In this document: positions 2,595 through 63,939 of the stretch, in pieces
How the letters are laid out: each line of letters begins with the position of its first letter
Numbering within the stretch: position 1 is the stretch's first letter
Assembly: GCF_001483135.1 (NCBI RefSeq)
Contig: NZ_LNAL01000008.1
Span: 1,240,001 to 1,304,000, forward strand
Reading direction: 5' to 3'
DNA from: Solirubrum puertoriconensis
GTDB taxonomy: Bacteria; Bacteroidota; Bacteroidia; Cytophagales; Hymenobacteraceae
DNA length: 64,000 nt
The notes under the pieces: generated by a model
Told to the model about the DNA's origin: nothing
Databases searched by the model: none
Seen by the model: the letters and a program-made list of their open reading frames with translations, nothing else
Made by a program: the position numbers and the translations under genes

Positions 2595-2626
2595 AAAGAG
2601 GCACCCCTAGGTAGGGGTGCCTCTTT
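2595..2626 (-). terminator. Intrinsic terminator of prfB (bidirectional hairpin)
   Basis: AAAGAGGCACCCCT pairs perfectly with AGGGGTGCCTCTTT around an AGGT loop. Read on the minus strand it follows the prfB stop and runs into TTTTGTTTC. A CCTAGG hexamer lies across the stem-loop junction. Confidence 0.85.
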
Positions 2627-2654
2627 CGCCTCACAGCACCTATGTGGCTGCGGC

Positions 2655-3732
2655 TTAGCTTTCCATCAAGAAGGCCTTAATGTACGGGTCCAGGTCTCCA
2701 TCAAGCACGTTCTGCACATCGGAGCGCTCAACGCCGGTGCGCAGGTCTTTTACCAACTTGTAAGGGTGCAACACGTAGTTCCTGATCTGCGAGCCGAAAT
2801 CGATGCGTTTTTTGCCGGCTTCTACCTCAGCTTTGGCGGCGTTGCGCTTCTCCATTTCGATCTGGTATAAGCGCGACTTGAGCATGCGCAGCGCGTGCTC
2901 CTTATTCATGAGCTGGCTGCGCTCAATTTGGACGGCAATGACGATACCAGACGGAGCGTGCGTTAGGCGTACGGCCGTTTCTACTTTGTTCACGTTCTGC
3001 CCACCTGCGCCGCCTGCCCGGAACGTATCCCAAGTAATGTCGGAGGGGTTGATGGCGATGTTGATCGTATCGTCGACAACGGGGTAGGCGAATACCGACG
3101 CGAAGGAAGTATGACGCCGACCGCTGCTGTCGAACGGCGAGATGCGCACCAAACGGTGTACCCCGATTTCGCTTTTCAGGTAGCCATAGGCAAACTGCCC
3201 TTCTATCTCGAGCGTGGCCGATTTGATGCCAGCTCCTTCGCCGGGTTGGTAGTTAACCTCGCGCACTGTGAAGCCGTGCTTCTCGCCCCACATGATATAC
3301 ATGCGCATGAGCATCTCGGCCCAATCCTGGCTTTCGGTACCTCCTGCGCCGGGGTTTATTTCGAGGATGGCCGAGAGCTGGTCTTCTTCACCGGAGAGCA
3401 TACGCTTGAACTCGAGTTGCTCCACGGTTTGCACCGCGTGGTCGAACTCGGCTCGCATTTCAGCTTCGGTGGCTTCGCCTTCCTTGTAGAAGTCGAACAG
3501 TACATCGGCATCGTCGACGGACTTTTGGGCTCTTTCGAAGTCGTCAGTCCACACCTTAATGCTTTTCAGCTCCTTGAGTGTGGTTTCAGCCTTCTTGGAG
3601 TCGTCCCAAAAGCCTGCCGATTGGCTTAGCTCTTCGAGCCGGGTGACTTCGGTTTTGCGGTTATCGTAGTCAAAGATACCTCCTTAAGGCCTCCACGCGG
3701 CCCTTCAGGTCTTTCACTTGTTCAGTGGTCAT
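2655..3732 (-). CDS. prfB: Peptide chain release factor 2 with programmed +1 frameshift
   Basis: RF2 releases the peptide at UGA and UAA codons. The long frame alone (3554 down to 2655) would give 299 residues and lack the N-terminus. Reading upstream on the minus strand, an ATG at 3732 opens a 20-codon frame that ends at an in-frame TGA (3672-3670). Skipping one base there joins the two frames into about 358 residues, the usual RF2 length. The merged protein has the stop-codon recognition tripeptide SPF (about residues 198-200), which identifies RF2 rather than RF1, and the catalytic GGQ loop (about 243-245). The gene stands alone with its own hairpin terminator. The coordinates cover both segments (3732-3673 and 3671-2655). 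Confidence 0.95.
3669..3684 (-). promoter_or_regulatory. prfB: prfB autoregulatory +1 frameshift site
   Basis: On the minus strand the sequence is AGGAGGTATCTTTGAC: an internal Shine-Dalgarno (AGGAGG), a short spacer, the slippery CTT codon and the in-frame TGA followed by C. This closely matches the known Escherichia coli element. When RF2 is scarce, ribosomes pause at UGA, slip +1 on CUU and complete RF2. It is notable here because Bacteroidota seldom use Shine-Dalgarno sequences for initiation, yet the element is kept. Confidence 0.95.
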
Positions 3733-3795
3733 CTGAGCGAAAGGGTAGGGGGTTGATGTATGAAATATAGGCTGCCTGACGGGGCGGCTTATCGG

Positions 3796-3803
3796 CAAAG
3801 GTA
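3796..3803 (-). promoter_or_regulatory. Candidate -7 box for prfB
   Basis: Read on the minus strand this is TACCTTTG, a perfect Bacteroidota TAnnTTTG box, which would place the start of transcription about 57 bases before the prfB ATG. I see no clear -33 TTG at the expected distance, so support is partial. Confidence 0.4.
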
Positions 3804-3819: not shown

Positions 3820-3855
3820 GCCGCCTGCTGCGACCTAGGGGCCACAGCAGGCGGC
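3820..3855 (-). terminator. Hairpin downstream of ilvE
   Basis: GCCGCCTGCTG and CAGCAGGCGGC form an 11-bp perfect stem. The loop contains CCTAGG. It lies about 25 bp past the ilvE stop. On the minus strand it is followed only by a weak TTCGTTT run; on the plus strand by AGTATTTTTT. Confidence 0.65.
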
Positions 3856-5010: not shown

Positions 5011-5559
5011 TTACTGGCGCGGTTGCCAAATAATTTCTTCGGCCCCTAGGTCTTGCGCCATGCGGCGGGCTAGTACGAACAAGTAGTCGGAGAGCCGGTT
5101 TAAATACTTGACTACCAGATCGGGTACAAACGAATCCTCGCGCAAGGCTATGGCCAGGCGTTCGGCGCGGCGGCATACGCAGCGGGTTACGTGGGCTTGC
5201 GAAACAGCAGGATGCCCACCCGGCAGAATAAAGTGACGCAGCTCGGGTAACGATTCGTTAAGGCGGTCCATCTCCTTCTCCAACTCCTCAACGTCGGAAT
5301 CGAGCAGATCGGGCAATTGCATGCGTGAACGTTCGGGGTCGGAGGCCAAGGTGGCGCCAATAGTGAACAGCCGATCCTGAATGTGCTTGAGCAGCGCGCG
5401 GTGCGGCAAGTTTACCTCCTGATCGCGCACAAGGCCAACCCAGGAGTTCAGTTCATCTACAGTGCCGTAGGCCTCGATGCGCAGGCTCGATTTGGGTACG
5501 CGCGTACCTCCGATAAGCGAAGTAAGTCCTTGGTCGCCGGTGCGGGTGTATATCTTCAC
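5011..5559 (-). CDS. PduO-type cob(I)alamin adenosyltransferase
   Basis: This 182-residue protein carries the PduO/MMAB N-terminal ATP-binding signature TRTGDQG (residues 5-11), then EAYGTVDELNSWVG and, further on, the helix with VTRCVCRRAER. It transfers the adenosyl group of ATP to cob(I)alamin to make coenzyme B12, for enzymes such as methylmalonyl-CoA mutase. It starts at GTG. No other cobalamin gene and no cobalamin riboswitch is visible nearby, suggesting a salvage role. The next gene upstream (an ABC ATPase) ends at its own terminator, so this gene is probably transcribed separately. Confidence 0.9.
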   Translation of the reverse strand: MKIYTRTGDQGLTSLIGGTRVPKSSLRIEAYGTVDELNSWVGLVRDQEVNLPHRALLKHIQDRLFTIGATLASDPERSRMQLPDLLDSDVEELEKEMDRLNESLPELRHFILPGGHPAVSQAHVTRCVCRRAERLAIALREDSFVPDLVVKYLNRLSDYLFVLARRMAQDLGAEEIIWQPRQ

Positions 5560-5652: not shown

Positions 5653-5687
5653 AAATCAAACAACACAACCTAGGGCACAACAGTAAA

Positions 5688-6428: not shown

Positions 6429-9146
6429 TTAGTTCCAGGGTGCTACGGCGGCCCGGTGGGCGGCACGCCGCTTGTCGTAATTGTTACGAAAGGTAATATA
6501 TTCTGATGATGGAAGCAACGTGCCAAGTTTAGCAAAAGAAGTCGTTGCATACTCCTCTAAACCAGCATCAGCCGCAGCTAGCACAAACCCTTGCAACAGT
6601 GCCACTGATTCGGGATTGTAGGACAATGCTCGGCGCATGATTTCGTAAGCGGTAATAGGATCTTGGCGCTGTGTAAAGAAATCGGATGCTTGCACTACAC
6701 CGGACTCGTCGAAGGGGTCGGCTTGCGTAAGCTTCTGATACTGTTGGGCCGCTGCTTTCGAATCCTTGGCTGCCGTGGAAGCCGCATTGGCGTATGCCTG
6801 CGCCAGCGGGCGTGCAGCTTTGGGTGCCGGCAGGATTGCGCCCGCCAAAATGCCGCGCAGGCTGCTTGCGCTGGCGGGTGTAGCCACAATGGCGCGTTGT
6901 GCAACAACGCGCGCCGAGTCGGGTTGGCCTGCCCAGGCTAATGCGTATGCCCTAGGTAGCAAAGCGGCGGTGTTGCCAGCTTGCTCGGCCAATGCCAAAC
7001 GTGCCGCTGCCGAAGCGTACAGGCCGCGCTCGAGCAGGTAAATGCCCAGTACTTGGTGATAGTAGCCACTGGTTGCGCCGGTAGCAAGGGCCTCGAGCTG
7101 ATCGAAGCCCGGCGCCGGACGTGCGCTGCGTAGCAATTGCAGGCCGCCTACAAACGTGAGCTGATCGGCGTAAGCATCGTTGGCTTGTACTCGGAGCAAG
7201 TTCTGTACAAGCGGCAAAGCAGCTGTGTCGTGCCGCGCCGCTTCGGCAAGCCCTAGGTGGTACAACTGTGCAAACTGCGCAACTGTAAGTGCCGAATCGA
7301 CTGCCAGCTTAGTATCGGCTACTTGCTGATAGCGGCCACGTAGCAAGTCGAGCACCAGGGTGTTGTTCTGCCAAGCGGGCCACTTCGGATTAGGGTTGTC
7401 GTTGGCTGAGGCTCGGGCGCCCTCGAGCTGATTGTTCTTGAGCAGAAAGGCCAGCCAGTTGGTGTGCGGTACCGGGTCGGCGTCGTTCGCAGCAGTAGCC
7501 CGGCCGTAGTAATGCAGCACCGAGTCGGGCAGCGAGGAACGCGAGTACAGTTGAGCCATTTCGGCATTGAGGCGGCCACTGGCCGGAAAAGCCCCCAAGC
7601 CTTGCCGTAGCACCTGTTGGCGCTCGAAAAAGTCGGTGGGTTGGTCGAAGCGAGCTGCCAACCGGAGCCAAACCTTTTCGTTGGGTTCGCGACGCAACGT
7701 GCTGCGCAGGATGTTGATTTCGTTTTGACGCTGCGACTTGGCTTGGTACAAAGCCGCTCTACCTAGGGCCGCACGGGCATTTAGCGGGTCCAGTTGGTCG
7801 GCCTCGGCGTAGTAGCGTTCTGCCAGCAGCGCCAAATACAGGTTATCGGGCTGCTGCTCGCTTTGCAGGCGAGTGAGGTCGCCGAACTGAATGTACTGCC
7901 CGGCGCGTGCCCGGTCGTACAAGTCAAATTGGTTGCGCATCAGCACTACCACGATAATGCCAATACCCAACGCATACATCATATAAAAGGGCATCCGACG
8001 TGGGTCGTACGCTACGCGGTGCACCTGTAGGCGTTGCTTGATAAGCGTCCCGAAGTTGAGCATCACGTACAGGAAGAACGCCAAGCCTAGGGCACCTAGG
8101 GCCAGAGCTACGAAGTCGCGGGTTGCCTGCAGCAGGGGCTCGTTGAGAGTTGCCGAAGCATACCCAAAGGTGCCAATTGCCACAAGCAGCAAGGCAACGT
8201 ACAGCCAGGTTGCGGCTTGGCGAGGCACCCACGCACGATAAGTAGGTTCGCGCAGGGGCAAGGTGTACCACCCGATGGCCGCTGCCGCGAGTAGCAGTAA
8301 GTAGGGGTTGAGGTACACGCCCGGCAGGATGGCCAACTTGCCAGCGTTCCAGTAGTACATCAGCAGTATGCCCAGCAGCAAGGCGCTCGAAAGCACAAAC
8401 GGCACCAACCCAAAACGGCCTTTTTGGGTTGCTCCTTGCGTATTCAGCCACAGCAGGCCGTAGATCAGCTCACCCCCAAGCCACACTGCCAGCAGAGCAA
8501 TGGCTGCTGCCCCGGCCAAGGTTCCGTAGGCTGCCAGGTGCAGCACCACAAAGCTGGCTGGGTGCCTGGTTTTGGCAAGCAGTAAGGCACCTAGGGCTGC
8601 TACCAGTACCGCAAACAGTACTAGGCGCCACCCAAAAGATAGGCCCTCTAAAAAAGCATGCAGTACAAAGGCCGCGCCGATCAATACCGCAATGCTCAGC
8701 ATCAGAAAATACTGATCCTGCTCGCCGAATATGCCCAACAAGTCCATGTTGAGCGACATCAGCAGGAAGATGGCCGCTGCCGCGCCCGCTACAAACGCCA
8801 ACCGGCTTAGTTGGCTGATTGCAGCTAGCCAAACCGCTAAGCCAATACCAAGCAACACTACCCAAGCTCCCGCCGCCGCAGGCCACAGCATAGGGCCTGC
8901 TACGTCGTAGGTTTGGGTAACTAAGTACGCATTGGCTGGCAGCGCGAGGGTGTCGGTACCTGCCGGTAGCTTAGCAATGGTAGTTGGTACGGGTGTGAGT
9001 TGTGCAATCGTGCCTACGGGCAGAGTATGCTCGGGGCCCGCAAAGTAGAAGTAAAGTGCTAGGCCTAACGCAGCGAAGAGCACCCCCAGTAGGCCCCATA
9101 GCAAACCGCGCGGAGTAGCTGGCTTAACCAGTGGAAGTTCGCGCAC
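6429..9146 (-). CDS. Polytopic membrane protein with C-terminal TPR repeats, function unknown
   Basis: The 905-residue product has two halves. Residues 1 to about 410 contain some 10-12 hydrophobic segments. Residues from about 430 onward are hydrophilic and Ala/Leu/Tyr-rich, with tetratricopeptide-like helices, for example around ADQLDPLNARAALGRAALYQ and the final block ITAYEIMRRALSYNPESVAL. I do not recognise a catalytic motif. The gene starts at GTG, 3 bp after the gatC stop, and is followed 12 bp later by an ABC ATPase. Membrane TPR proteins of this kind often act as assembly scaffolds, but no function can be assigned from the sequence. Confidence 0.8.
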   Translation of the reverse strand: MRELPLVKPATPRGLLWGLLGVLFAALGLALYFYFAGPEHTLPVGTIAQLTPVPTTIAKLPAGTDTLALPANAYLVTQTYDVAGPMLWPAAAGAWVVLLGIGLAVWLAAISQLSRLAFVAGAAAAIFLLMSLNMDLLGIFGEQDQYFLMLSIAVLIGAAFVLHAFLEGLSFGWRLVLFAVLVAALGALLLAKTRHPASFVVLHLAAYGTLAGAAAIALLAVWLGGELIYGLLWLNTQGATQKGRFGLVPFVLSSALLLGILLMYYWNAGKLAILPGVYLNPYLLLLAAAAIGWYTLPLREPTYRAWVPRQAATWLYVALLLVAIGTFGYASATLNEPLLQATRDFVALALGALGLAFFLYVMLNFGTLIKQRLQVHRVAYDPRRMPFYMMYALGIGIIVVVLMRNQFDLYDRARAGQYIQFGDLTRLQSEQQPDNLYLALLAERYYAEADQLDPLNARAALGRAALYQAKSQRQNEINILRSTLRREPNEKVWLRLAARFDQPTDFFERQQVLRQGLGAFPASGRLNAEMAQLYSRSSLPDSVLHYYGRATAANDADPVPHTNWLAFLLKNNQLEGARASANDNPNPKWPAWQNNTLVLDLLRGRYQQVADTKLAVDSALTVAQFAQLYHLGLAEAARHDTAALPLVQNLLRVQANDAYADQLTFVGGLQLLRSARPAPGFDQLEALATGATSGYYHQVLGIYLLERGLYASAAARLALAEQAGNTAALLPRAYALAWAGQPDSARVVAQRAIVATPASASSLRGILAGAILPAPKAARPLAQAYANAASTAAKDSKAAAQQYQKLTQADPFDESGVVQASDFFTQRQDPITAYEIMRRALSYNPESVALLQGFVLAAADAGLEEYATTSFAKLGTLLPSSEYITFRNNYDKRRAAHRAAVAPWN

Positions 9147-10360: not shown

Positions 10361-10933
10361 TTAACCTAGGTGCCGCTCGCGCAAAATGCGCTCGGCCTTC
10401 AGCAAGCCGGCCACGCTTATGGCATCGGTTATGCGGTTGTTCATGCACATCTGCACGGCCTCGGCCAGGGGCAACTTCCAGAGGTGTAGCTCTTCGGTTT
10501 CTTCGGGCGCTACTTCGCCGTATTCCAGGTCTTCGGCCAGGAATACGAAGCCCTCTTCATCGGTAACCGAATTGGAGGTATGCAGGCGGGCAATGTTCGT
10601 CCAGCGGCGAGCATTCATGCCGGTTTCCTCCTTTAACTCCCGCTGCGCCGATTCAAGAATGTCCAGTTCTACCGGCCCGCCGCCCATGGGTATTTCCCAC
10701 GAGTACTCGTTGAGCGGGTAGCGGTACTGGCCCACCAACCAGGTGTTGCCCTCCGCGTCGACCGGGATAATACCTAGGGCTTTGTTCTTCATCGACACCA
10801 CGCCGTAAATGCCACGCCCACCAGTCGGATTGATGACCTGATCCTCACGCACACTGATCCAGGGGTTCTGATACTTGGCCTCGGTGCTGAGGGTTTGCCA
10901 CGGGTTGCGCGTTTCGTCGGGAAGCACTTGCAT
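10361..10933 (-). CDS. NUDIX hydrolase, ADP-ribose pyrophosphatase-like
   Basis: This 190-residue protein contains a NUDIX box around residues 84-106, with the catalytic REL-x-EET-G core (Arg98, Glu99, Glu102, Glu103, Gly105). The first conserved Glu of the box is displaced by one residue (Glu89). The family hydrolyses nucleoside diphosphates linked to another moiety. The length, an N-terminal beta domain (about 15-65) before the box, and the AGQYRYP-like WLVGQYRYPL stretch point to the ADP-ribose or GDP-sugar pyrophosphatase group. The exact substrate is uncertain. It starts at ATG and lies upstream of plsC with a 59-bp gap. Confidence 0.87.
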   Translation of the reverse strand: MQVLPDETRNPWQTLSTEAKYQNPWISVREDQVINPTGGRGIYGVVSMKNKALGIIPVDAEGNTWLVGQYRYPLNEYSWEIPMGGGPVELDILESAQRELKEETGMNARRWTNIARLHTSNSVTDEEGFVFLAEDLEYGEVAPEETEELHLWKLPLAEAVQMCMNNRITDAISVAGLLKAERILRERHLG

Positions 10934-11389: not shown

Positions 11390-14300
11390 ATGAAAGTACT
11401 TTTACGCTTAGCTGCCACAGCCATGGCTTGGGCTAGTTTAGGTGTTTTGGTTGCAGAGGCGGCGCCTCCTGTGCCCGTCGCGGTTACCGCCAACGTGGGT
11501 TCCGATGAAATTGGACCCTTCCAGCTTGCTAACCTGAGTGTTACCGATCCGAATGGCACGCCTGATTTGGCGGCTTATCGTTTTGTAACGCTGCCTACAA
11601 CCGGGCGACTGTATGCATACAATATCTCTACAGGAGCTTCTGTTGAAATTACCTCAGCGAATCAACAGGTCGATCCGTTTCTGTATCCCAATCTTGTTTT
11701 CGATCCGGCCTCGGCTACGGCTAACTACACCGTTAGCTTTCAGTACACGGCCGTTGATGAAGCAGGGGAGGTAGGTACTCCCGCAACCTACACCATCAAT
11801 GTAACCAATGCTACTGCGGCGGCAAATATTCAGCCGATTACGGCTGAGCGTACCAACGTGCTGATTGCCCATGGCTTTGGCGCGCAAACGCTTTCGCCCG
11901 GCTTGTTTGGTGTTGATACTGACGGTGCAGTTGCAAACTACAGCGTTACGCCTCCGGCAACAGGTGGCACGCTTTCACTTGATGGTGTTGCTATCACGGC
12001 AGCTCGTACAGTGTCGGCTACGGAGGCAACCCGCCTCGCATTCACGCCCGCAGCCAACTTTTTCGGTACGGTTGTAATTCAGTATCGCGCACTCGATAAC
12101 AGCGGAGCTCAGGATGGTTCCCCCGCTAACTATGTAATTCCGGTTGCTAAATCGGGGTCGAGCAAAGGTGGCTTGCTGAATTTTACTTCGCGCACCAACC
12201 TAGAGGACTGGACCGAAGCGCGCAGCACAACTGCCGATGAGGTTGTATTCAACTCTACTTACAGCGCCAGCACGCAGGGTAAAACGGCTTTTCGCATCGA
12301 GCCGAACCCGACTATGCCAGGCAAGGCGCTTACATGGAGCTCTGACTATCAGGCCAACGCAACAAATAAGATGGCCGAAGCCAATTTCAACTTTGGCAAG
12401 GCTCTGAGTGGCTTCACCCTTAGCATTGGTGATATTGATATTTCGGCCGCTAACACAACGGTTACGCCCAATGTGCCCGCCGGCGGTACCTGGATTGACC
12501 GTTTAGTGTTTGAGGGTTTTCGTGCTGATGGTACAATTGTTACCCTAACCAGTGTTGATGTGAAGCCTGGCGCAGCAGCTCGCTTTGATGCTGGCCTGAA
12601 TTCGCTTACCGGCACCGTTAACACGGGTGCTGCAACCAGCAACAGCATAATCACTTTCCCCGAGCCCATCGTTAGGCTGCGTATTCGTTATTACAACGAT
12701 GCCACAGGCACCGATCCGGTATTGCAGGTTGTCACTTTCGATTCGTTCTCGTGGTACACGCAGGACGTAAGCACCGTAGCGAGTGGTCCAGTAATTGCCA
12801 ATCCTGCGTCAACGGTTTCTTATACGGTAGTTACCGACAACGACGGCCCTTACACCGCTATCAACGTGGTGCCGACGCTGCAACTTGTTCCGAACTTGAC
12901 TAACGTAACCATCAACGGATCGGCGGCCGGTAGCAGCTACGTTAGCGCCACGGGTTTGCTTACGCTGCCAACCGTGTCCAACCTCGCTTCGGGCCAAGAG
13001 GTAACCAACACCGTAGGATTTACGATGCCGAACACGACTGTTACGGGTACTGCCCGCAACACCTCAAACAGCATCGACGAAGAGCCGTCCAACAACAACG
13101 GCAGCCTAGCCTCAGCGCAGGTAACCACCGTACCCAATCAAGCGCCGGTGGCTCGCAATATTACTGCACCTACGCTAAGCAATGGCAGCTCTGCTACACC
13201 AATTCCGAGCTTAGTAGCCAATGACCCCAATGGCGATAATACCATCGTTAGCTACCTGATTAGCGTGCCTAGCGCCGGTGGTGTATTGAGCTATTTGGAG
13301 GATAATGGCACCACCGTTACTATTTCCGGAACCTCGACGGTTGGGCAGCGTACGTTGTCACCCACTGAAATTGCTCGCTTGAGTTTTGATCCTAACGCGG
13401 GTTTCGTTGGCAATGCTTCGTTTACTTATACTGCTACCGACGACCTCTTGCTGACCTCAAATACTGCTACCTATACCATTCCGGTAGGTGCTGCTGTGGG
13501 TGCGACTGACTTAGCAGTAACGCAGCAAGTAGTGCTGGGCCCGTACGTTGTTGGTGATGAAGTGGTTTATACCATCACAGCCTACAACCTAGGCACCAGT
13601 CCGGCGCTAAACGCACAAGTGCAGGATGCTTTGCCCCAAGGATTGACGTTTGTTAGCGCCACTGCCTCTACGGGTACATCATACAGCAACGCCACTGGGG
13701 TATGGACGATTACATCAGGCGTAACCACCTTTAACGCTGGAGCAACGGCAACGCTCACCATCCGCGCCCTGATCAATCGTGAAGGTGAGTTCACCAACAC
13801 CTCGATTGTTACTTCTTCGACGGTAGACTCGAACCCAGCCAACAACGAAGCCAACGAAACCATCAACCCTGGTACGGCGGCCTACGCACAAGATTTTGAA
13901 GGACGTGTCGTGCCCGATAACTGCGAACCGGTATCGACTGGTGTGAGCATACTCACGGGCAGCACGGCATTGGCCGAAGGCAACTCGCTCACAACCGGCA
14001 CGCTCTCTACAACTGCCAGCACCTACACTACGCCCTTCCTGCGTTTGGCTGGCAACTCGGTTCTCTCATTCCGCGCACAAGCCTCCGCAACTACCAACAC
14101 GCCGCAGTACCGCGTAGTACTTGTTGATGCCAGCGGTAACCGCACTACTCTGCAAGCTGCTACAAATCTTTCGGCCACGAACTCAGGCTACACACTCAAC
14201 CTGACGCAAGCTGGCGTGTATCGTATTGAGATTGGTTTCTTAACTACCGCAAACGGTACGAGCAACCCTACGGCCCGCCTCGATGAAGTACTGGTTACAA

Positions 14301-18230: not shown

Positions 18231-18252
18231 ACCCCCTAGGTAGCAAGGTGCC

Positions 18253-39379: not shown

Positions 39380-39386
39380 CTCAAAA

Positions 39387-49434: not shown

Positions 49435-49569
49435 GGTTCTATCAGCGGCGAATAACAAAGATAGCCCGCCAAACGCCAGAACAATCCCCAACCCGGAGCA
49501 TCCTGAAATGGCTATTCAGCCATATGCTTGCCGCTGAGTGGCCTGCTGGAACCTAGGGCTAAGTAAAGG

Positions 49570-51627
49570 TTACTCGCGCAACGCTGCTGCATGAATTTGC
49601 GCCAACGCTTCGGCAACGCTGTGCACTGGCTGCTGACAGGTATAGTTGTAGCACACGTAAATGGTAGTGTTGCCATCAGCTGCATGGCGGTTGAGGAGCA
49701 GTGGCAGCTCGCTGGTGGTGCTACTACCCGTAAGCACAGCATTGGGCAGGTTGTGGCGGCTCAACTCGCGCCGGAAAAGCTCGGCATCGGGGCCTACAAT
49801 GGCTACTTCAGCCAACGGGGCCAGCTGGCTGAGGTACAACGAAGCCCAATTACACAGGTGCTGGGGCTCCTTTACGGCCAAGTCTTGTACCAGCGCCAGC
49901 ATAGCAGCAGCTCGTCCGCGCCAAGCAGGCACATCGAGCAGTGTACCTAGGCGCAGCAGGTTATGCGCCATCACGGAGTTTGAGCTTGGTATTACGTTGT
50001 CGAACAATTCTTTCTTCCGCGCTATCAACGCTTCGCCGGTGCTATCGGTGTAGAACAAGTGCGACTCAATCTCATCGGCAAAATGCTCAAGTACATACTC
50101 CGTCAGCTCACGCGCCCGCTGCAACCAGCGTTCAGCAAAAGTGGCTTCGTAGAGGGCTGTGTACGCATCAATAAGCAGCGCATAATCTTCCAGGAAGGCT
50201 ATAATAGTAGCGCGGCCGTTCTTGTAGTTGCGCCACAAACCACGCCCGCGGCGTAGGTTCTGCTCGATAAATTCGGCGTTTTGCAGGGCCAGCTCGAGGT
50301 ATTGCGGCTTATGAAAAGTACGGTAAGCATCAACCAAGCCGCGTAGCATCAGGGCGTTCCAGCCCGTCAGAATTTTGTCGTCGAGGCCTGGGCGTACGCG
50401 TTGGTTGCGGTATTCAAGCAACTTCCGACGCCAACCCGCAGCTAGATCGGCTACCACACCGCTCGTCAGTTGGTGTACCTCGGCAAACGCAGCATCGGAG
50501 TACCGGCGGTGCAAAATGTTGTTGCCATGCTCCCAGTTGCCCCCAGCCGTGCAGTTGTAGTAATCGGCAGCCAAGGGGGCTTCGTCACCTAGGGCCTCGC
50601 GCAGCTGCTCCAAGCTGAAGACGTAAAACTTACCTTCTTCGCCCTCGCTATCGGCGTCGAGCGACGAGTAAAAACCGCCTTCGGGGCTCATTAGCTCGCG
50701 GTGCACAAACTCTACGGTTTGCTGTACCACCTCGCGCCATTGCTCATCCTGCGTTAGCTGATAAGCTTCGGCATACAGGCTAATGAGCTGGCCGTTGTCG
50801 TACAGCATCTTTTCAAAGTGCGGAACCAGCCATTCCTCATCCACCGAATACCGAGCAACACCACCGCCTACTTGGTCATAAATGCCACCCCACGCTATTT
50901 CCTGTAGCGTAAGGTTTGTTTGTTGCAGGGCTGCGTTGTTGCCGGTAAGCGCATGCGCCCGCAGCAAAAAGCGCCAGATCACTGGCATCGAGAACTTGGG
51001 CGCCTTCTTGGTGCCGCCCAGCTTCGTGTCGAAACGCTTGACTAGGTTGCGCAGCAAAGTTTGAAACTCTTGCCTAGCAACTGGCTTGGCGCTAGTCTTC
51101 GCCCCGTATTTCTCGAGGTCGTTCGCGCGCAGCACCCGCGCAAACTCCTCAGCCGATTGGTCTAGTTCGGCACGGTGCTCACTGCCATAGGCATTGGCAA
51201 TCTGTTGCAGCAACTCAAACCAATTGCGGGGTGGAAAGTACGTGCCGCCATAAAACGGTTTTGTTTCTGGAGTCAGAAACACGTTCAGCGGCCAACCACC
51301 ACCTAGGCCCATGGCGTGTATGGCATCCATATATACTTGGTCGATATCGGGCCGTTCCTCCCGATCAACCTTGATGCATACAAACCGCTCGTTCATCACC
51401 TGCGCTATCTGCTCGTGCTCAAACGACTCGCGCTCCATCACATGGCACCAGTGGCAGGCGGCATAACCAATGCTCACTAGGATGGGCTTTTGCTCGGTTT
51501 GCGCACGTCTGAGTGCCTCTTCGCCCCACGGGTACCAGTCAACGGGGTTATAGGCGTGCTGAAGCAAGTACGGGCTTGATTCGTGCACTAAGCGGTTTGG
51601 TTGGCTAGCGGAGGCGGGCGTTGCCAT
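49570..51627 (-). CDS. DUF255 thioredoxin-fold protein (YyaL/SPATA20 family)
   Basis: From the ATG at 51627 the 685 residues begin with a thioredoxin-like domain holding an active CxxC in AACHWCHVM (about 50-58) and the family hallmark [20 protein letters not shown]. The remainder is a long alpha/alpha toroid, like N-acylglucosamine 2-epimerase or cellobiose-epimerase folds ([23 protein letters not shown]). The group includes bacterial YyaL and animal SPATA20; biochemical function is not settled. The longer frame from 51723 runs through the terminator of the next gene and is rejected. Confidence 0.87.
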
Positions 51628-51690: not shown

Positions 51691-51716
51691 AAACCCGGCC
51701 CTAGGTGGCCGGGTTT
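51691..51716 (-). terminator. Intrinsic terminator of the GSCFA gene, with CCTAGG at the loop
   Basis: AAACCCGGCC and GGCCGGGTTT form a 10-bp stem; the CTAGGT loop completes a CCTAGG. On the minus strand it is followed by a GCTGTTTTTGTT T-rich tail, 12 bp after the GSCFA stop codon. Confidence 0.85.
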
Positions 51717-51727: not shown

Positions 51728-53716
51728 CTAACTAGAAGGGGGCTCTTGCGGCTTACGGCGCGGCGGTCGGCCACGGCGTTTAGGTGCCGAAGCCGGGGCT
51801 GCGTCATCGGCAGGTGCCGCAGTTGCGTCCGGGACTGCGGCACCTACATCTGAGGATGCCTCCCGTGGCGATTTAGCCGATGCCGCTGGTTTCCGCCTAG
51901 GTGCTGGGCGCCGGCGATTCGTGACAGGAGCGGGTGTAGCCGCTTCTTCAGCAACCGGCGCAGTTGGCTCGGCAACTGCTGGTGCTGCCGGTACAAGCGT
52001 TGGCAGGGCATCAATTGCCGATTCTACTGCTGCCATTAACTTGCTACTGCCCTTGCCTCGGTCAGCTCGGCCCCGCGATTTGGGCTTGCGCGGCTCGGGT
52101 TCTGTTGGCTCAATAGCAGATCCCTCCGCAGGAGCAGCCTCTGTTATAGGCGATGCATCAACCGCAACGGGCGGCGTAAGCTCAGTAATGTGTTGCTCGG
52201 CTTGGGCTTCAGGCTGAGGCTCGGCATATAAAGCAGGCTTCTTGCGCGCCGGGCGGCCGCGGCGGGAAGGCTGCGGCGGGGTAGGCGCCTCCAGCGCCGG
52301 GGGCTCTGGTTGCGTAACTACCGGGGCTGGGTTTAACTCCGCGGTATTGTCAGCTGCATCTGCTAGCGCAGGCTCAGCGGTTAGCTCCTGCGTGTTGTCA
52401 GCTGATGCGTCCTCCGAGCGTAGTTGGTTCTTCTTTTTGTGCTTACGTCCTCCGCGCTTGCGTTTGCGGCGCTTGGCAGAGCCGGCTTCAGATGCACCCA
52501 GTTCCATTTCATGGGCAACTTCGGCAGCAGGGGGCACATCGGCCAGTTCTTCGTTCTCCTCAGCTGCCAACACTTCGGCCCATACCACAGAAGCTGCGGG
52601 AGGAATCACTTCTCGCACTTGCTCCTGACGAACCGAAGTTGTTGGAATGGCAGCTTCTATTGGTGCACTTCCTTCTCCGATGTCGATGCGCTCTTCATTG
52701 TCTTCGGGCTCGGGCGGCAATATGGGTTTGGGAGGCGGTGGCAAGGCTACAATGCGCTTGTGCACGTCGCGTAGTTCGGAACGCACATCAACACGATTAG
52801 CTAAGCGCTGTAGGCGCTGCTGCGTTTGCTCCAAGAAATGACGGTGCTCAGGAGCTCCTACATGGAAAGGCCGATGCTCCAGTGCTCTGCGGATTCCATC
52901 CCATTCCTGGGCGAACTGCCTGAACGCGTTATCGAAGTAAACGGCCGTAAACTTTTCCCAGATGTACTGCTCTGCCACTTCCGACGGATGCAGCATATCA
53001 TTTCCGTAGAAACGATAATCGCGCAGATCATCGAGCAGCAACTCGTACGCCGGAAAATAGGTAGCGCCGGGCAGTAGTTCGCTTAAATAGTGGCAGGCCA
53101 CGCGCAGCACCGATTTGCTTACCGCGTTCAGCGGTAATGTATCGCGCAAATGCCGAACGGGGCTAACCGTTAGAATTAGCTTAAGCTTGGGGTTTATCTG
53201 GCGTAGTAAGGCATATGCCTCCGTTACCGCAGTAATTACCTCCTCCGCTGAGAGCAACTCTTTTTCGAAGCGCTCTGCCGCAATCTTGTGGCAGTTGTTT
53301 ACTACCTCACCCGTTTCCTGAAGCCGGTAACCAAATGCGGTGCCGAGAGTCCAGATCAGTACATCTGCCGAACGCACGAACTCCGCAGTTTCGCGCACGG
53401 TTTGCTCGATGCGTTGCAACAGGGCGGGAGGAGAGTCGGCACCTAGGGTAGCATGCAGATCAAAGCTCTGCCAGCGGCCCCGGGCTTCAACCAAGTGTTG
53501 CTGCCAGTCGGTTTCCTCGCCAGCAACTGCACGAAGCAGCCGAGCCGCAGCAAGCGGATTGAACACGGTGCCAAACGGATTAACTAGCGTCCGCACCTTA
53601 TGCTGGGCTAGCCGCTCCCCAATAACATCCGAAAAGCACGACCCTAGGGTAAGCACGCGTGCTCCCTGTGTAAGGGGCTGCGCATCGGGTCGAAGAATTA
53701 ATTCAGTACGAAACAT
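51728..53716 (-). CDS. GSCFA-domain protein with long disordered tail containing AT-hook-like motifs
   Basis: The 662-residue product from the ATG at 53716 starts with a GSCFA domain, SGNH-hydrolase-like (about 8-290): LTLGSCFSDVIG (GSCFA hallmark), LIWTLGTAFGYR and a later FYGNDMLHPSEVA block with a likely catalytic His. From about residue 310 the rest is Glu/Ala/Pro-rich and disordered, with four basic clusters: KRRKRKRGGRKHKKK, SRRGRPARKK, RKPKSRGRADRG and KRRGRPPRRK. Two contain the RGRP core of AT-hooks. GSCFA proteins are thought to act on cell-surface glycans, so a DNA- or RNA-binding tail is unexpected. There is no signal peptide. Confidence 0.82.
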   Translation of the reverse strand: MFRTELILRPDAQPLTQGARVLTLGSCFSDVIGERLAQHKVRTLVNPFGTVFNPLAAARLLRAVAGEETDWQQHLVEARGRWQSFDLHATLGADSPPALLQRIEQTVRETAEFVRSADVLIWTLGTAFGYRLQETGEVVNNCHKIAAERFEKELLSAEEVITAVTEAYALLRQINPKLKLILTVSPVRHLRDTLPLNAVSKSVLRVACHYLSELLPGATYFPAYELLLDDLRDYRFYGNDMLHPSEVAEQYIWEKFTAVYFDNAFRQFAQEWDGIRRALEHRPFHVGAPEHRHFLEQTQQRLQRLANRVDVRSELRDVHKRIVALPPPPKPILPPEPEDNEERIDIGEGSAPIEAAIPTTSVRQEQVREVIPPAASVVWAEVLAAEENEELADVPPAAEVAHEMELGASEAGSAKRRKRKRGGRKHKKKNQLRSEDASADNTQELTAEPALADAADNTAELNPAPVVTQPEPPALEAPTPPQPSRRGRPARKKPALYAEPQPEAQAEQHITELTPPVAVDASPITEAAPAEGSAIEPTEPEPRKPKSRGRADRGKGSSKLMAAVESAIDALPTLVPAAPAVAEPTAPVAEEAATPAPVTNRRRPAPRRKPAASAKSPREASSDVGAAVPDATAAPADDAAPASAPKRRGRPPRRKPQEPPSS

Positions 53717-56802: not shown

Positions 56803-59800
56803 ATGCAAGAGTCGCCTAAGTACTGGAAGGGAATTGAGGAGCTCGAGAACTCACCGGAGTTTTTGCACAACGCCCTGAGCGAATTCGGGACGTTGCCGGT
56901 GAAGGAAAGCCACCCCTCAACGGATGATACGGTTGCACCGCGTCGCGACTTCCTGAAGCTGATGGGCTTTGGTCTAGCTGCCGCTACATTGGCTAGCTGC
57001 GAAGCACCCGTCCGTAAAGCCATTCCGTACCTGAACAAGCCCGAGGAAGTAGACCCGGGTATAGCTAACTTCTACGCTTCGACCTATTTCAACGGTCAGG
57101 ACTACAACAGCGTGCTGATCAAGACGCGCGAAGGTCGCCCGATCAAGGTTGAAGGAAATCCGGAGTCGCCGGTAACGCGTGGCGGTTTGTCCGCTCGCGG
57201 TCAGGCGTCGTTGCTGAACCTGTACGACCAAGCTCGTCTGCAGTCATTTGCTATCAATGGCAAACCTGCCGACAAAGATCAGGTCGATCAAGAAATCCGT
57301 ACGAAGCTTGCAGGTGTGACTGGTCGCATTGCAATCGTTTCGCCAACTATTATCAGCCCTACCACAAAGCGAGTTATCGCTGAGTTTGCAGGCCGTTATG
57401 CAAACACGGAGCACGTAATGTACGATGCAGTGTCGCAGTCGGGCTTGCTACGTGCAAACGGTGGTGTGGTACCAGGCTATGACTTCAGCAAAGCTGCTGT
57501 AATTGTAAGCTTAGCTGCCGACTTCCTGGGCACGTGGGTTTCTCCGGTAGAATACGCTTCGCAGTACATCGTAAACCGCAAGGTTTCTTCTTCTAAGAAG
57601 ACGATGTCACGTCACTTCCAGTTTGAGCCAAATATGTCGCTCACTGGTGCTAATGCCGACGTTCGCGTAGCTGTTAAACCATCGGAGATTGGCAAGGTTG
57701 CTCTCGCCCTGTATAACGGTATCGTTGGTGGTGGTGCAGCTTCCTCTTATAGAAACGCCCAACTTACCAAGGCTATCAACGAACTGAAAGCTGCTGGCAA
57801 TCGTGCCCTAGTGGTGTCTGGTTCGAACGATGTTGCAGTCCAAACCTTGGTAACTGCCATCAACGCTGCTCTAGGTAACACTGGGACTACAATCAACCCT
57901 GCAGCACCTTCCTATGTGCGTCAGGGTGATGATGCACGTATGGCGCGCTTGGTAGCTGATATGAAGGCTGGCCAAGTAGGTGCAGTTATCTTTTATCATG
58001 CTAACCCAGCCTACGACCACCCACTGGCCGCAGATGTAAAGCAAGCCCTGCAGAACAAAAATCTGCTGAGCATTTCGTTCAATGAGAAGATGGACGAAAC
58101 TACCTCGCTTTGCCAGTACCAGTGCCCCGACCATAACTGGATGGAGTCCTGGAATGACTTCGAACCGCGTCGTGGTGCTTTGAGCTTGTCACAACCCGTT
58201 ATCACACCCCTGTTCAAAACTCGTCAAGCACAGGAAAGCTTGCTCGTTTGGGCTGGTAACCCTAACACCTATTACAACTACCTGCGCAACAACTGGCGTG
58301 GTGTACTAGGTGGCAACTTTCAAGCTGGTTGGGATAAGGCAGTACACGATGGCGTAGCTGCTGGTACTCTCAGCCCAGCTCCGGCTACTCAAATAGCTCC
58401 TGTTATTTCGGCTGATCAGGCTGCTGGTGAAATTGCAGCTGCTAAGCCTGGCTCAGGCATCGAGCTTGCTCTGTACGAGAAAGTGGGTGTTGGCAACGGT
58501 TCGCATGCCAACAACCCTTGGTTGCAAGAATTGCCTGACCCAGTTTCCAAGGCAACTTGGGGCAACTATGTCTCTGTTTCCCGCGCGATGGCGAAGGAGC
58601 AGGAGTGGGAGCAGGGTGACGTAATCCGCGTAACGGCTAACGGTAAATCCGTCGAATTGCCGGTGCTAATTCAGCCTGGACAAGCTCAAGGTTCGGTAGG
58701 CATTGCTATCGGTTATGGTCGTGAGAAGGCAGGCAAAGTAGGGGATAAAGTAGGTAGTAACGCCTACCCTCTTGCTCAGCTTCGTAATGGTGCTATCGTG
58801 TACAACGTGCCGGTAACACTCGAAAAAACGGATGCCTCGCAGCCCATCGCCCAGACGCAGACGCACCATACCATTATGGACCGCAAGCCGGTAGTGCAAG
58901 AAGCTACGCTGGCTCAATACATCAAGGATTCTAAATCCGTAACTGAGTACGATAAGATCTCCACTCCCGAAGGATTGGAGAAACCGAACAAAGTTTCGCT
59001 GTGGCAGGATTACGAGTATAAGAACCACCACTGGGCAATGGCCATCGACCTCAACTCATGCATTGGCTGCGGCTCGTGCGTGTTGGGTTGCCAGGTTGAG
59101 AACAATATCCCCGTAGTTGGTAAGCAGGAAGTAATCAACCGTCGCGAGATGCACTGGTTGCGTATTGACCGCTATTATAGCTCCGATACGCATAAGGACT
59201 CGTTCGAAACCGAAGGTAAGCTGGCTACTTACGCGCTGATGGAAGACCCGTCGGATAATCCGCAGGTTATCTTCCAGCCGATGCTGTGCCAACACTGCAA
59301 CCACGCTCCTTGCGAAACAGTGTGCCCGGTACTTGCTACTACTCACAGCACCGAGGGTCTGAATCAAATGACCTACAACCGCTGCGTAGGTACTCGCTAC
59401 TGTGCAAACAACTGCCCCTATAAGGTGCGTCGTTTCAACTGGTTCTCGTACTACTCTAACGAGAAGTTCGAAACCGTGAACGGCCACATGTTCACCGACC
59501 TAGGTCGCATGGTGCTGAACCCCGACGTAACTGTGCGTGCCCGTGGCGTTATCGAAAAGTGCTCGTTCTGTGTACAGCGCATTCAGCTCGGTAAGCTGGA
59601 AGCCAAGAAGCAGAAGCGTCGTCCGGTTGATGGTGAAGTTGTAACAGCCTGCGCCCAGTCTTGCCCAACTCAAGCCATTGTATTTGGTGATCTGAAAGAT
59701 CCGAACTCGCGTGTGTCGCAAATCTGGCGCCGTGAGGATGGTGAACGAGGCTTTAAAGTGCTTGACGCTATCAATACGCAGCCAAACATTACGTATCTGA

Positions 59801-61366: not shown

Positions 61367-61883
61367 GCGGTACGCGCTCGGCATCTTCGAAGACGAAGAC
61401 GTGCTTTTGCACGCTATTGAAAACATTCGCGCTGCCGGCGTAAAAATCTACGACGTTTTCTCGCCTTACCCTATTCACGGCATTGATGATGCCTTGGGTA
61501 TCGAACGCTCCCGTCTGCCGATTGCTGCCTTCTTTTATGGATTGTGCGGCTTGTCGTTTGCGCTCTGGATGCAGATCTACATGATGGGTTTCGACTGGCC
61601 AATGATTGTTGGCGGTAAGCCTCACATCGGTCTTCCGGCTTTCATTCCAGTAGCTTTTGAGTTAACAGTTCTCTTCACTGCTCACGGCATGATGATTACT
61701 TTCTTTCTCATCAGCAAGCTTTGGCCACGTTGGCGCGTACCTGTAATGGATGTGCGTTCAACCGATGATAAGTTCGTAATGGCCATCGAACTGAAGGAAG
61801 GAACCGATCTGGCTCAACTCACCCAACTGCTGCGTAGCAACGGTGCTTCTGAGGTGAACGAAAAAGAAATGACCAAAGAATAA
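61359..61883 (+). CDS. actD: Alternative complex III subunit ActD (DUF3341)
   Basis: The 174-residue protein has the DUF3341 layout: a short cytoplasmic N-terminal domain ([23 protein letters not shown]) with the invariant [10 protein letters not shown] (about 44-53), two membrane helices (about 62-85 and 95-120), and a soluble C-terminal ferredoxin-like end. It is a structural subunit at the cytoplasmic face of alternative complex III. Its ATG lies inside actC, and its stop overlaps the actE start, so actCDE are translated as a coupled series. Confidence 0.93.
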
Positions 61884-62608
61884 TGACGCACTTAGTAAAA
61901 TACGGCGTCCAGGCTTCGGCCATTCTGTTCGCTTCGGTGCTTGTTACTGCTTGCAACGATGCCAACGATCCTGGCTTGGAGTATGCGCCTCAGATGTACG
62001 AGTCGATTCCGTACGAGCCGCTGAAACAATACGATGCAAATACGGTAAATCCGATGGGCTTAAACATGCGAAACCCTGCTATTGCTACGGTTCCGCGTGG
62101 AAAGCTTGATTACTTCAATCATATCGGGAAAGACAGTGTAGGTATTGCTGAGCGTACTCTGCGCAACCCACTGGCATATAGCCGCCAAAACCTTGAGGAA
62201 GGTAAGGTTCTATATACCCGAATCTGCCAACACTGCCACGGTGAGCAAGGTGACGGACAAGGGCCTGTCGGAGCTAAATTCAAAGGTGTACCTAGTTATT
62301 CAACTGGTGCATATGTTAACATGAATGATGCTCACATCTACCATGTGATTCAGTGGGGCAAAGGACGGATGATGCCGCACGGCTCAATTGTCAATCCGGA
62401 GGAGCGCTGGAAAATTGCTATGTACGTCCGCGTACTGCAGAAAGGTAAAGGTCCGGAAGGCATGAGCGAATTGGTAACAGACGAACTTACCCCTACGCAG
62501 AAAACCAACCCCGAAAATCAGGAGCCTTACGGTGAGGCGCAAGCTAACAAAGCTTCGGAAACCCCGGGCCAAGGTGGCACGGAGGCTCGTAACGGCACGG
62601 CAGAGTAA
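61883..62608 (+). CDS. actE: Alternative complex III subunit ActE, lipoprotein monohaem cytochrome c
   Basis: The 241 residues start with a lipoprotein signal ending LVTAC (Cys24) and contain one class I cytochrome c domain, with CQHCH at 115-119 and a Met axial ligand in RMMPHG (about 157). The last 40 residues are Glu/Gln/Ala-rich and disordered. ActE is the lipid-anchored electron exit of the complex. Its first base overlaps the actD stop by one base. Confidence 0.93.
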   Translation: MTHLVKYGVQASAILFASVLVTACNDANDPGLEYAPQMYESIPYEPLKQYDANTVNPMGLNMRNPAIATVPRGKLDYFNHIGKDSVGIAERTLRNPLAYSRQNLEEGKVLYTRICQHCHGEQGDGQGPVGAKFKGVPSYSTGAYVNMNDAHIYHVIQWGKGRMMPHGSIVNPEERWKIAMYVRVLQKGKGPEGMSELVTDELTPTQKTNPENQEPYGEAQANKASETPGQGGTEARNGTAE

Positions 62609-62613
62609 TCAAT

Positions 62614-63939
62614 ATGGCTTCAACGCATCATCACGAACCTGTAACGGCTGAGTTTCTAGAACTCTCGCCTGCTGCTCGCCGTCGGTTCATCCTGTTCATT
62701 GTTGCCGGGGTCGTGCTTATGGCCATCGGTCTCATCATGGCTGCCATGGGTATTGGTGGCGGCCACCACGAAGTAGCTGCTGCTGCTCATGGTGCCTCAG
62801 AAGGTGCTGGTGCATCAGTTGAGCATGGTGGAGATCATGCTCCGGTATGGCTTCGCCGTTTGTTTGCCAGCCTGTGGCAAAGCAATACTTATCTAATTGG
62901 TATCTCTGTTGTCGGCACAGTATTCGTAGCAATTAATACTGTTGCTTATGCAGGCTGGTCAATCATCGTTCGCCGCATTGCAGAAGCTTTCAGTGCTTGG
63001 TTGCTTCCTGGCTTGGTGATCATGCTGATTGTGTTCTTCGCGAGCGGGCACAACCTGTTCCACTGGCGTACTCACGGCATCATGGATCCGGGCTCTGAGA
63101 ATTACGATGCAATCATTGCTGGCAAATCAGGCTTCTTGAACTTGCCTTTCTATGTGATTCGTATGGTGCTGTTCGTACTAATCTGGTGGTTTTTCTCGGA
63201 ACGTTTGCGAAAGCTCTCTTTGGAAGAAGATCAACTAGGCGGTACGGGTTTCTGGGATAAGAGCATCAATGTGTCAGCGCTCTTCCTCGTACTGTTTGCT
63301 GTTACATCTTCAATTGCTGCTTGGGATTGGGTGATGTCTATTGACACTCACTGGTTCTCAACCATGTTCGGTTGGTATGTATTTGCTTCGTGGTGGGTAG
63401 CAGGTATTGCTGCGATTCTCCTGAGTGCTATATTCCTGAAGCAAGCCGGTTACTTGCGCTTTTTGAATTCGAACCACCTGCATGACCTAGGAAAGCTGAT
63501 GTTTGGCTTCAGCATCTTCTGGACTTACATCTGGTTCTCACAGTTCATGTTGATTTGGTACGCGAACCTCCCCGAGGAATCGGTGTACTTCAATCAACGT
63601 CTAGGTGGCTTCAATGGCCAATATACTTGGTTGTTCTTCTTCAACCTGATCATCAATTTCGCTTTCCCATTCTTGGCTCTAATGACCCGCGATGCTAAGC
63701 GTCAGATGATCATGCTGAAGATTGTGGCTATTGCGGTGCTGATTGGCCACTGGCTTGACTTCTATATGATGATCATGCCCGGAACGTTGAAGGCCGACAG
63801 TGGGTTTATCATAGAAATCGGTACTGCGCTGGTTTTCCTCGGCTCGTTCCTCCTCTTGATGACCAAACGTCTCTCGCAAGCTTCTCTGATTCCGGTTAAT
63901 CATCCCTTTGTAGAGGAGAGCGTACATCATACCACCTAA
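62614..63939 (+). CDS. actF: Alternative complex III subunit ActF, NrfD-like membrane protein
   Basis: The 441-residue product has a soluble N-terminal segment, a first helix (about 27-48), a His/Gly/Ala-rich periplasmic loop (HEVAAAAHGASEGAG), then about nine further helices, the ActF form of the NrfD family. A VIEEISTALV-like region near the C-terminus (IIEIGTALVFLGSFLLLMTKRL) closes the last helix. It is the second quinol/proton membrane subunit, paralogous to ActC. It follows actE by 5 bp and is the last complete gene of the window. Confidence 0.93.
   Translation: MASTHHHEPVTAEFLELSPAARRRFILFIVAGVVLMAIGLIMAAMGIGGGHHEVAAAAHGASEGAGASVEHGGDHAPVWLRRLFASLWQSNTYLIGISVVGTVFVAINTVAYAGWSIIVRRIAEAFSAWLLPGLVIMLIVFFASGHNLFHWRTHGIMDPGSENYDAIIAGKSGFLNLPFYVIRMVLFVLIWWFFSERLRKLSLEEDQLGGTGFWDKSINVSALFLVLFAVTSSIAAWDWVMSIDTHWFSTMFGWYVFASWWVAGIAAILLSAIFLKQAGYLRFLNSNHLHDLGKLMFGFSIFWTYIWFSQFMLIWYANLPEESVYFNQRLGGFNGQYTWLFFFNLIINFAFPFLALMTRDAKRQMIMLKIVAIAVLIGHWLDFYMMIMPGTLKADSGFIIEIGTALVFLGSFLLLMTKRLSQASLIPVNHPFVEESVHHTT

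Follow-up and report, generated by a model that had tools for sequence, protein, structure and literature searches.

An asymmetric CTAG-centred word iterated along the chromosomes of Solirubrum puertoriconensis and related Hymenobacter

Highly iterated palindromes (HIPs) of cyanobacteria and DNA-uptake sequences of Neisseriaceae and Pasteurellaceae are the two closest known kinds of element to the word described here, the hexamer CCTAGG and its flanks in Solirubrum puertoriconensis. HIP1 (GCGATCGC) and its alternates resemble it in their density of about one site per kb and in their palindromic tetramer core (GATC there, CTAG here). As described in sections of PMC4390886, the flanks of cyanobacterial HIPs also vary by lineage and their occurrence among close relatives is likewise sporadic; the function and the driver of highly iterated words are treated as open in the same sections. 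Uptake sequences share with the present word a short asymmetric form, thousands of copies on both strands and dialects with a conserved core (PMC3630211, in part), and a palindrome of unknown effect, GCCTAGGC, is listed in a table of PMC1939737. We analyzed CCTAGG in a 64,000-base stretch of contig NZ_LNAL01000008.1 (hereafter, the window), in the whole genome of S. puertoriconensis and in related genomes. The hexamer is identical to the target of type II restriction-modification of AvrII specificity; restriction predicts avoidance of the recognition site, whereas here we find extreme enrichment with flank requirements. We show that a site-level fixation bias keeps a recognition word, ACCTAGG with G or C as the next base, across the chromosomes of S. 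puertoriconensis, Hymenobacter oligotrophus and Hymenobacter sp. YIM 151858-1 (together, cluster A), and that this bias completes near-misses via transitions and transversions and is scarcely visible on cluster A plasmids. The existence of the phenomenon itself is practically certain, and HIP-type methylation, uptake of the pilus type, and Chi or KOPS sites each lack at least one of their defining features here.

The window contains exactly 73 copies of CCTAGG, compared with 19.2 expected from base composition, in line with the roughly 73 and 20 of the original prediction, which was made from the window's sequence alone. An order-2 Markov model predicts about 11 sites (21.8 when both strands are counted) and an order-4 model 50.9, a figure raised by the motif's own contribution to the pentamer counts. 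Markov comparisons were made on the window and on 444 kb of the S. puertoriconensis genome (G000) that include it; expected counts elsewhere derive from base composition unless stated. In the whole genome (4.80 Mb) we counted 6,212 copies vs. 136 for the reversed letter order, and the whole-genome count that had been proposed as a refuting test thus brought no refutation, its Markov part covering the window and the 444 kb. Both the density of HIP-type words (about 0.5–2.5 sites per kb) and their excess over expectation are found for CCTAGG in this genome, but in the window's clade the word is asymmetric, not palindromic.

Within genes, CCTAGG is chosen at the DNA level, as had been proposed. 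Using gene models from our own open reading frame (ORF) calls on the stretches of genomes that were read, we found 373 sites in the genes of the 444 kb vs. 45.2 ± 6.4 after within-gene shuffling of synonymous codons (z about 51; 15.8 for the next-ranked palindrome), a result that rules out base composition and codon usage as the cause. Most coding sites are Leu-Gly, again as predicted (336 of 373 in the frame C-CTA-GG), the other 37 being Pro-Arg (CCT-AGG); the Pro-Arg frame predicted for the site at 36999 was confirmed. CTA accounts for 67% of the 502 leucine codons with C before and GG after, compared with 6.7–11.2% in three other contexts (11% with GG after but without C before). Density is 1.9 sites per kb outside predicted genes vs. 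1.0 inside, and among gene gaps it is highest in convergent (4.8 per kb) and lowest in divergent ones (2.0). A hairpin or terminator function is ruled out, as 39 of 355 sites lie in hairpins vs. 182 of 1,701 random positions. The predicted drop in density at 53.7–64 kb of the window stands as a count (two sites) but is weak evidence, because the genes there provide just five C-Leu-GG contexts, two of them used, vs. 48 of 61 used in the rest of the window. The next-ranked palindrome, TGCGCA, also exceeds its synonymous expectation (308 vs. 174.1), and CGATCG and TCGCGA are strongly avoided in the same genes (z −11.1 and −8.4).

The unit in the window's clade is the asymmetric ACCTAGG followed by G, then C and far less by A or T, and not the palindrome CCTAGG that had been proposed. 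The near-constant ACCTAGG context described originally does hold, since ACCTAGG can be read on one or both strands at 71 of the 73 window sites; at 64 of them an A flanks one side and G or C the opposite side, and these flanks (A..S, where S is G or C) were counted at 385 of 531 sites. We examined 122.6 kb of intergenic DNA from the three enriched species, derived from 1.15 Mb of pooled cluster A DNA and omitting plasmid-like contigs and three site-poor pieces (two of H. oligotrophus, one of YIM 151858-1). ACCTAGGG occurs there 195 times (4.2 expected, about 46-fold) and ACCTAGGC 86 times (4.2 expected, about 20-fold), followed by ACCTAGGA with 29 (3.7 expected) and ACCTAGGT with 16 (1.8 expected), while words that lack a 5' A on both strands stay close to the chance level (0 to 2.9-fold). 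Against 147.7 expected, there are 167 forms with one mismatch in the core of ACCTAGG plus G or C; CCTAGG is therefore recognised in a nearly all-or-none way, whereas the flanks act by degrees.

Copy number varies 21- to 50-fold within the window's genus, in which three genomes have 5,325–6,212 CCTAGG and five (G001, G002, G003, G005 and G006) have 123–249. Across 204 genomes of the family, nine exceed 5,000 copies, four more exceed 1,000, eight have 507–888 and the other 183 stay below 500; the 13 genomes with more than 1,000 fall in two of six genera, and the maximum among 391 other genomes of the phylum, three of them of the same family, is 734. Eight named Hymenobacter, including H. busanensis, H. 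edaphi, H. jeollabukensis, Hymenobacter sp. CRA2 and sp. 15J16-1T3B, have one to four copies each in loci of about 22.6 kb. We found no report of the CCTAGG word in Hymenobacter in the open-licence literature, a search in which subscription papers were mostly not covered.

In an unrooted one-gene tree (2,492 columns) of the nine strongly enriched genomes and the five unenriched members of the window's genus, the nine fall into three clusters: A (G000, G004 and G007), B (G072, G088 and G104) and C (G030, G036 and G123), where G004 is H. oligotrophus, G007 Hymenobacter sp. YIM 151858-1 and G123 Hymenobacter sp. GOD-10R (identical plasmid sequence). The tree leaves the number of origins unsettled because it does not include unenriched members of the other genus. 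At least three dialects occur among the enriched genomes, with CTAG as the constant part (counts from 64–112 kb per group). Cluster A uses ACCTAGGS. Within cluster B, G088 and G104 use ACCTAGGG and ACCTAGGC, and G072 uses CCCTAGGG (52 sites, 2.9 expected) and CCCTAGGC (43, 5.8 expected). The dialect of cluster C is ASCTAGST, represented in G030 by ACCTAGGT (50, 1.0 expected), ACCTAGCT (30, 2.0 expected) and AGCTAGCT (12, 1.0 expected). Dialects in G030 and G072 are palindromic, unlike that of cluster A; the weakly enriched G041, G043, G129 and G137 provided too little DNA for a firm dialect. The tetramer CTAG is strongly avoided in the five unenriched relatives (observed/expected 0.10–0.24). 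Outside CCTAGG it is avoided in cluster A as well (0.21–0.39), whereas in clusters B and C the avoidance is gone (0.77–1.24). Separately, GGATCC is near absent in some Hymenobacter (one copy in G084, none in G113 and G121) and present in one to three hundred copies elsewhere (227 in G029, 323 in G123), a pattern that suggests a second lineage-specific word, under strong avoidance.

Aligned window sites are kept at 46 of 66 positions in H. oligotrophus and 45 of 69 in YIM 151858-1 (background hexamer identity 0.39 and 0.44), and at 0–4 of 45–52 in each of the five unenriched congeners. At the 44 sites with at least three of these five aligned, the 206 cells differ from the word by one (102), two (65), three (25) or four (9) mismatches or are identical (5); a majority of the unenriched relatives have one common hexamer at 26 of the sites (all five alike at six) and none at 18. 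The simplest reading of these alignments is that the word was gained recently, in the lineage of cluster A. Listed precursors per species comprise CCTCGG or CCGAGG, which imply transversions, at 9–12 sites and CCTGGG or CCCAGG, which imply transitions, at 4–10. Both types of substitution made sites, ruling out a single type as the source and contradicting the single mutational bias among the causes first proposed. The proposed test of conservation between relatives, once corrected for amino acid, likewise brought no refutation: where leucine and the C..GG context are shared, CTA is kept at 0.83 of 36 codons in H. oligotrophus and 0.87 of 38 in YIM 151858-1, vs. 0.19 of 130 and 0.18 of 131 elsewhere. 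In enriched genomes of the other genus, CCTAGG of S. puertoriconensis is kept at 5/7 sites (G088), 4/8 (G104), 4/7 (G072), 4/13 (G036), 4/16 (G123) and 2/18 (G030), numbers too small to use (hexamer background 0.14–0.18), and such retention can arise by convergence because Leu-Gly codons are shared.

The word is scarce on plasmids of cluster A, except for one block discussed below. Small contigs of H. oligotrophus carry two sites in 51 kb (an 11-kb contig is a verified plasmid, and two others have stretches in common with the YIM 151858-1 plasmid within the 20 kb sampled from each). That 158-kb plasmid has 16 sites, four of them ACCTAGGS, a second contig of the same strain three in 40 kb, and the 12.5-kb contig C4 of S. 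puertoriconensis two. The YIM 151858-1 plasmid and the 259-kb plasmid-like contig C5 of S. puertoriconensis have ParA, mobilisation, transfer and replication-initiation regions in common, and their common 41.7-kb backbone (82.6% identity; the two genomes are 85.7% identical across the window) has two sites in C5 and none in the YIM 151858-1 plasmid, compared with about 50 expected at chromosomal density. A cell-wide process would mark long-resident plasmids, and the sparse plasmids count against it unless they arrived recently. Two further contigs, possible plasmids, are fully loaded, namely the 89-kb contig C2 of S. puertoriconensis (124 sites) and the 101-kb contig C5 of G072 (1.6 per kb in 20 kb). 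Two of 20 sampled chromosomal pieces of H. oligotrophus are also site-poor, with 7 sites per 20 kb each vs. 25–36, and look like recent acquisitions; a piece of YIM 151858-1 adjoining Vsr and a C5 methyltransferase gene is poor as well (4 per 20 kb).

Among the causes that could produce this pattern, we lean, with less than even confidence, toward drive by biased exchange of chromosomal DNA through a putative reader. Such a reader would recognise the word and favour incoming conspecific fragments that carry it, after which homologous recombination would swap near-miss alleles for complete ones, a drive that by analogy may be functionally like that of DNA-uptake sequences. An asymmetric word at about one per kb and balanced on both strands, as in uptake sequences, is what we observe, and uptake sequences are scarce on mobile elements. 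The putative reader would not be a type IV pilus or VirB11 system with a recognisable PF00437 ATPase; Riemerella, also of the Bacteroidota, is competent without pilus homologs according to part of PMC8459023, so an uptake drive that relies on other machinery is possible. If the specificity of the reader drifts, the other CTAG-centred dialects of other enriched Hymenobacter would result, and lineage dialects are what would be expected.

Several observations weigh against exchange through a reader. PF00437 (the ATPase of type IV pili, type II secretion and VirB11), the sole competence gene searched, was found in 0 of 24 genomes (controls gave a match in 14 of 14, above cut-off in 13), and no reader gene was found among the families and window genes searched: none of six window genes absent from or diverged in unenriched relatives suggests a DNA reader in Pfam. 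Near-miss excess is almost nil, unlike in uptake sequences as presented in part of PMC1939737, the sites are not enriched in hairpins, and the core is palindromic. Contig C5 of S. puertoriconensis carries 63 sites, 54 of them in one 80-kb block (160–240 kb), with the rest nearly empty. Plasmid scarcity is moreover not universal, because the plasmid pieces of GOD-10R, in cluster C, carry CCTAGG at 0.50 and 0.35 per kb, roughly one half to two thirds of the genome mean of about 0.74, and the sparse plasmids may be recent arrivals because they carry conjugation genes. Finally, a chromosome-binding function accounts for the plasmid pattern equally well. The site-rich block of C5 is perhaps chromosomal DNA moved onto the replicon or an assembly join.

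A HIP-type origin, in which mismatch repair that depends on modification of the core by a DNA methyltransferase acts as a ratchet, making and keeping sites (Elhai's model for cyanobacterial HIPs, as given in part of PMC4390886), is possible though rather doubtful. The HIP1-like character claimed by the original prediction was borne out for density, for the fixed, palindromic four-base core and for lineage-specific flanks, and sites are made by substitutions in coding DNA in both cases. The likeness is weaker in symmetry: HIP1 extensions stay palindromic in the relevant part of PMC4390886 and the cluster A unit does not; in Oscillatoria PCC 10802, however, the same part describes an asymmetric favourite, ACCGGC/GCCGGT within rCCGGy, that parallels ACCTAGGC. 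The partly loaded GOD-10R plasmids fit more easily with a process that acts throughout the cell than with one confined to the chromosome, whereas the nearly empty 41.7-kb backbone, if long resident, does not. Further differences from cyanobacterial HIPs are the phylum, the scarcity on cluster A plasmids, a core that relatives avoid, and the lack of a methyltransferase family in common among those tested. We searched PF01555 and PF00145 in 22 genomes each and PF02086, PF02384, PF00437 and Vsr (PF03852) in 24 each. None of the four methyltransferase families is common to the nine strongly enriched genomes (PF01555 in four, PF00145 in two, PF02086 in none, PF02384 in eight, G000 being the exception) or to all members of cluster A, and PF02384 does not discriminate because it is present in 22 of 24 genomes, including 11 of 11 unenriched ones searched. 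Within these families, S. puertoriconensis has one PF01555 gene, on the 12.5-kb contig, and H. oligotrophus one PF02384 gene, inside a site-poor piece. The methylation cause put forward originally thus appears unsupported by gene content; another methyltransferase family, different enzymes in different lineages or a since-lost enzyme are possible variants.

Equally doubtful is a binding site for a chromosome-organising, recombination or repair protein, kept by natural selection at about one site per 0.7–0.8 kb. A repair or nucleoid protein and an uptake-type cause had both been named in the original prediction and are possible. Scarcity on cluster A plasmids and the lack of strand bias fit such a protein, as do a density that varies little from one part of the H. 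oligotrophus chromosome to another (variance/mean of 0.31 per 20 kb in 18 of 20 pieces, lowest among 11 abundant palindromes) and a slight shortage of very short gaps between sites in an otherwise nearly exponential distribution. Yet S. puertoriconensis is not under-dispersed (1.49 in 21 of 22 pieces), and the pieces dropped (two of 20 and one of 22) were picked for low CCTAGG count, which favours a low ratio; because S. puertoriconensis does not show it, we give the under-dispersion little weight. There is also no candidate protein, and shifting dialects and sporadic occurrence would be unusual for a core nucleoid protein.

The remaining explanations fare worse. CTAGG resembles the Vsr target and Vsr occurs in some Hymenobacter, but a context-specific mutational or very-short-patch repair bias creating the word is improbable: transversion precursors are about as frequent as transitions, sites are conserved far above other CTA codons, cluster A plasmids escape, and Vsr does not track the trait (3 of 13 enriched vs. 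2 of 11 other genomes). Chi-like sites or FtsK-orienting polar sequences (KOPS) guiding a recombination or segregation motor are likewise short, chromosome-wide and asymmetric, but these types of site are expected to show strand skew and the word shows none: ACCTAGGS occurs 2,359 times forward and 2,472 times reverse in S. puertoriconensis, a split by G-rich strand gives 180 vs. 205 sites, and both orientations occur in 20 of 20 sampled pieces of the 4.1-Mb H. oligotrophus contig, which makes this reading slightly less probable still. A codon-pair or translational preference for CTA-GGN, suggested by the predominance of Leu-Gly, has a negligible chance given the higher density outside genes, the 37 Pro-Arg-frame sites and the preference for CTA in contexts with C before and GG after. 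Even jointly these three are unlikely, and we reserve the remainder for something not listed here.

All sites and the other features of the window are compiled in the table. The SelR/MsrB-type gene is present at its locus in three enriched species and not in five unenriched syntenic stretches; it is probably unrelated to the motif. The 1,914-aa ORF, a variable large protein, is matched over its full length (49%) in just one of seven syntenic stretches, that of G001; G007 and G005 match it in part, and the other four do not match it. The tRNA-Lys gene explains why a stretch at about 39300–39415 matches many Hymenobacter genomes at 85–98%.

Table. CCTAGG sites (bracketed words, first at 2606, last at 63486) and other features of the window
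Feature	Positions	Strand	Remark
CCCTAGGT	2606..2611	-	
ACCTAGGG	3834..3839	+	
CCCTAGGT	5045..5050	-	CCGAGG in 5/5 unenriched relatives
ACCTAGGG	5669..5674	+	
CCCTAGGT	6951..6956	-	
CCCTAGGT	7252..7257	-	
ACCTAGGG	7762..7767	+	
GCCTAGGG	8086..8091	.	without A flank
ACCTAGGG	8095..8100	+	
ACCTAGGG	8590..8595	+	
ACCTAGGT	10365..10370	.	palindromic
ACCTAGGG	10773..10778	+	
ACCTAGGC	13588..13593	+	
GCCTAGGT	15577..15582	-	
ACCTAGGT	16084..16089	.	palindromic
CCCTAGGT	16465..16470	-	
GCCTAGGT	16945..16950	-	
GCCTAGGT	17410..17415	-	
ACCTAGGC	17620..17625	+	
ACCTAGGT	17945..17950	.	palindromic
CCCTAGGT	18235..18240	-	
ACCTAGGA	19755..19760	+	
ACCTAGGG	20628..20633	+	
GCCTAGGT	20870..20875	-	
GCCTAGGT	21603..21608	-	
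GCCTAGGT	21906..21911	-	CCTGGG in 5/5 unenriched relatives
CCCTAGGT	22328..22333	-	
ACCTAGGC	22394..22399	+	CCTCGG in 5/5 unenriched relatives
ACCTAGGG	23407..23412	+	
CCCTAGGT	24227..24232	-	
CCCTAGGT	24998..25003	-	
ACCTAGGG	25175..25180	+	
GCCTAGGT	25355..25360	-	
GCCTAGGT	26211..26216	-	
ACCTAGGG	26634..26639	+	
CCCTAGGT	27393..27398	-	CCGAGG in 5/5 unenriched relatives
CCCTAGGT	29176..29181	-	
ACCTAGGC	29602..29607	+	CCTCGG in 5/5 unenriched relatives
GCCTAGGT	30328..30333	-	CCTCGG in 5/5 unenriched relatives
ACCTAGGC	30712..30717	+	
ACCTAGGG	31544..31549	+	
ACCTAGGG	32363..32368	+	
GCCTAGGT	35402..35407	-	
ACCTAGGG	35735..35740	+	
GCCTAGGT	35879..35884	-	
ACCTAGGG	36999..37004	+	Pro-Arg frame of ORF 36414-37916
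ACCTAGGC	37880..37885	+	
GCCTAGGT	37920..37925	-	
ACCTAGGG	38238..38243	+	
GCCTAGGT	38289..38294	-	CCGAGG in 4/4 aligned unenriched relatives
CCCTAGGT	38777..38782	-	
ACCTAGGC	39467..39472	+	
ACCTAGGG	39984..39989	+	
GCCTAGGT	40277..40282	-	
ACCTAGGT	40590..40595	.	palindromic
ACCTAGGC	40682..40687	+	
ACCTAGGC	42494..42499	+	
ACCTAGGG	43874..43879	+	
GCCTAGGT	44280..44285	-	
CCCTAGGT	45208..45213	-	
CCCTAGGT	46870..46875	-	
ACCTAGGC	47087..47092	+	
ACCTAGGC	48281..48286	+	
ACCTAGGG	49552..49557	+	
ACCTAGGC	49946..49951	+	
ACCTAGGG	50588..50593	+	
ACCTAGGC	51302..51307	+	
CCCTAGGT	51700..51705	-	
GCCTAGGT	51896..51901	-	
ACCTAGGG	53442..53447	+	
CCCTAGGG	53643..53648	.	without A flank
ACCTAGGT	59499..59504	.	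palindromic
ACCTAGGA	63486..63491	+	
Window gene	106-1056		no Pfam match
SusD-like	1076-2509		Pfam match
ORF (1,914 aa)	11390-17134		
tRNA-Lys (ttt)	39307-39380		
SelR/MsrB	39529-40095		Pfam match
DUF2721	40123-40566		Pfam match
Window gene	43346-43819		no Pfam match
Window gene	46218-46799		no Pfam match

The word provides a natural experiment, in which copy number differs 21- to 50-fold within one genus, dialects vary among the enriched lineages, and plasmids of the same cells serve in part as internal controls. A component usual in each of the two most similar kinds of element, a shared methyltransferase family or a pilus-type ATPase, was sought and not found. It is a tentative proposal, held at the same strength as drive by biased exchange, that Hymenobacter has a previously undescribed chromosome-marking system, in which a putative protein family would read CTAG-centred octamers nearly all-or-none, with a specificity that shifts per lineage, and each lineage's chromosome would be rewritten accordingly, with a matching site about once per kb and with neither DNA methylation nor a pilus involved. 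If drive by biased exchange is the true cause, the word would represent an uptake-type system in Bacteroidota.

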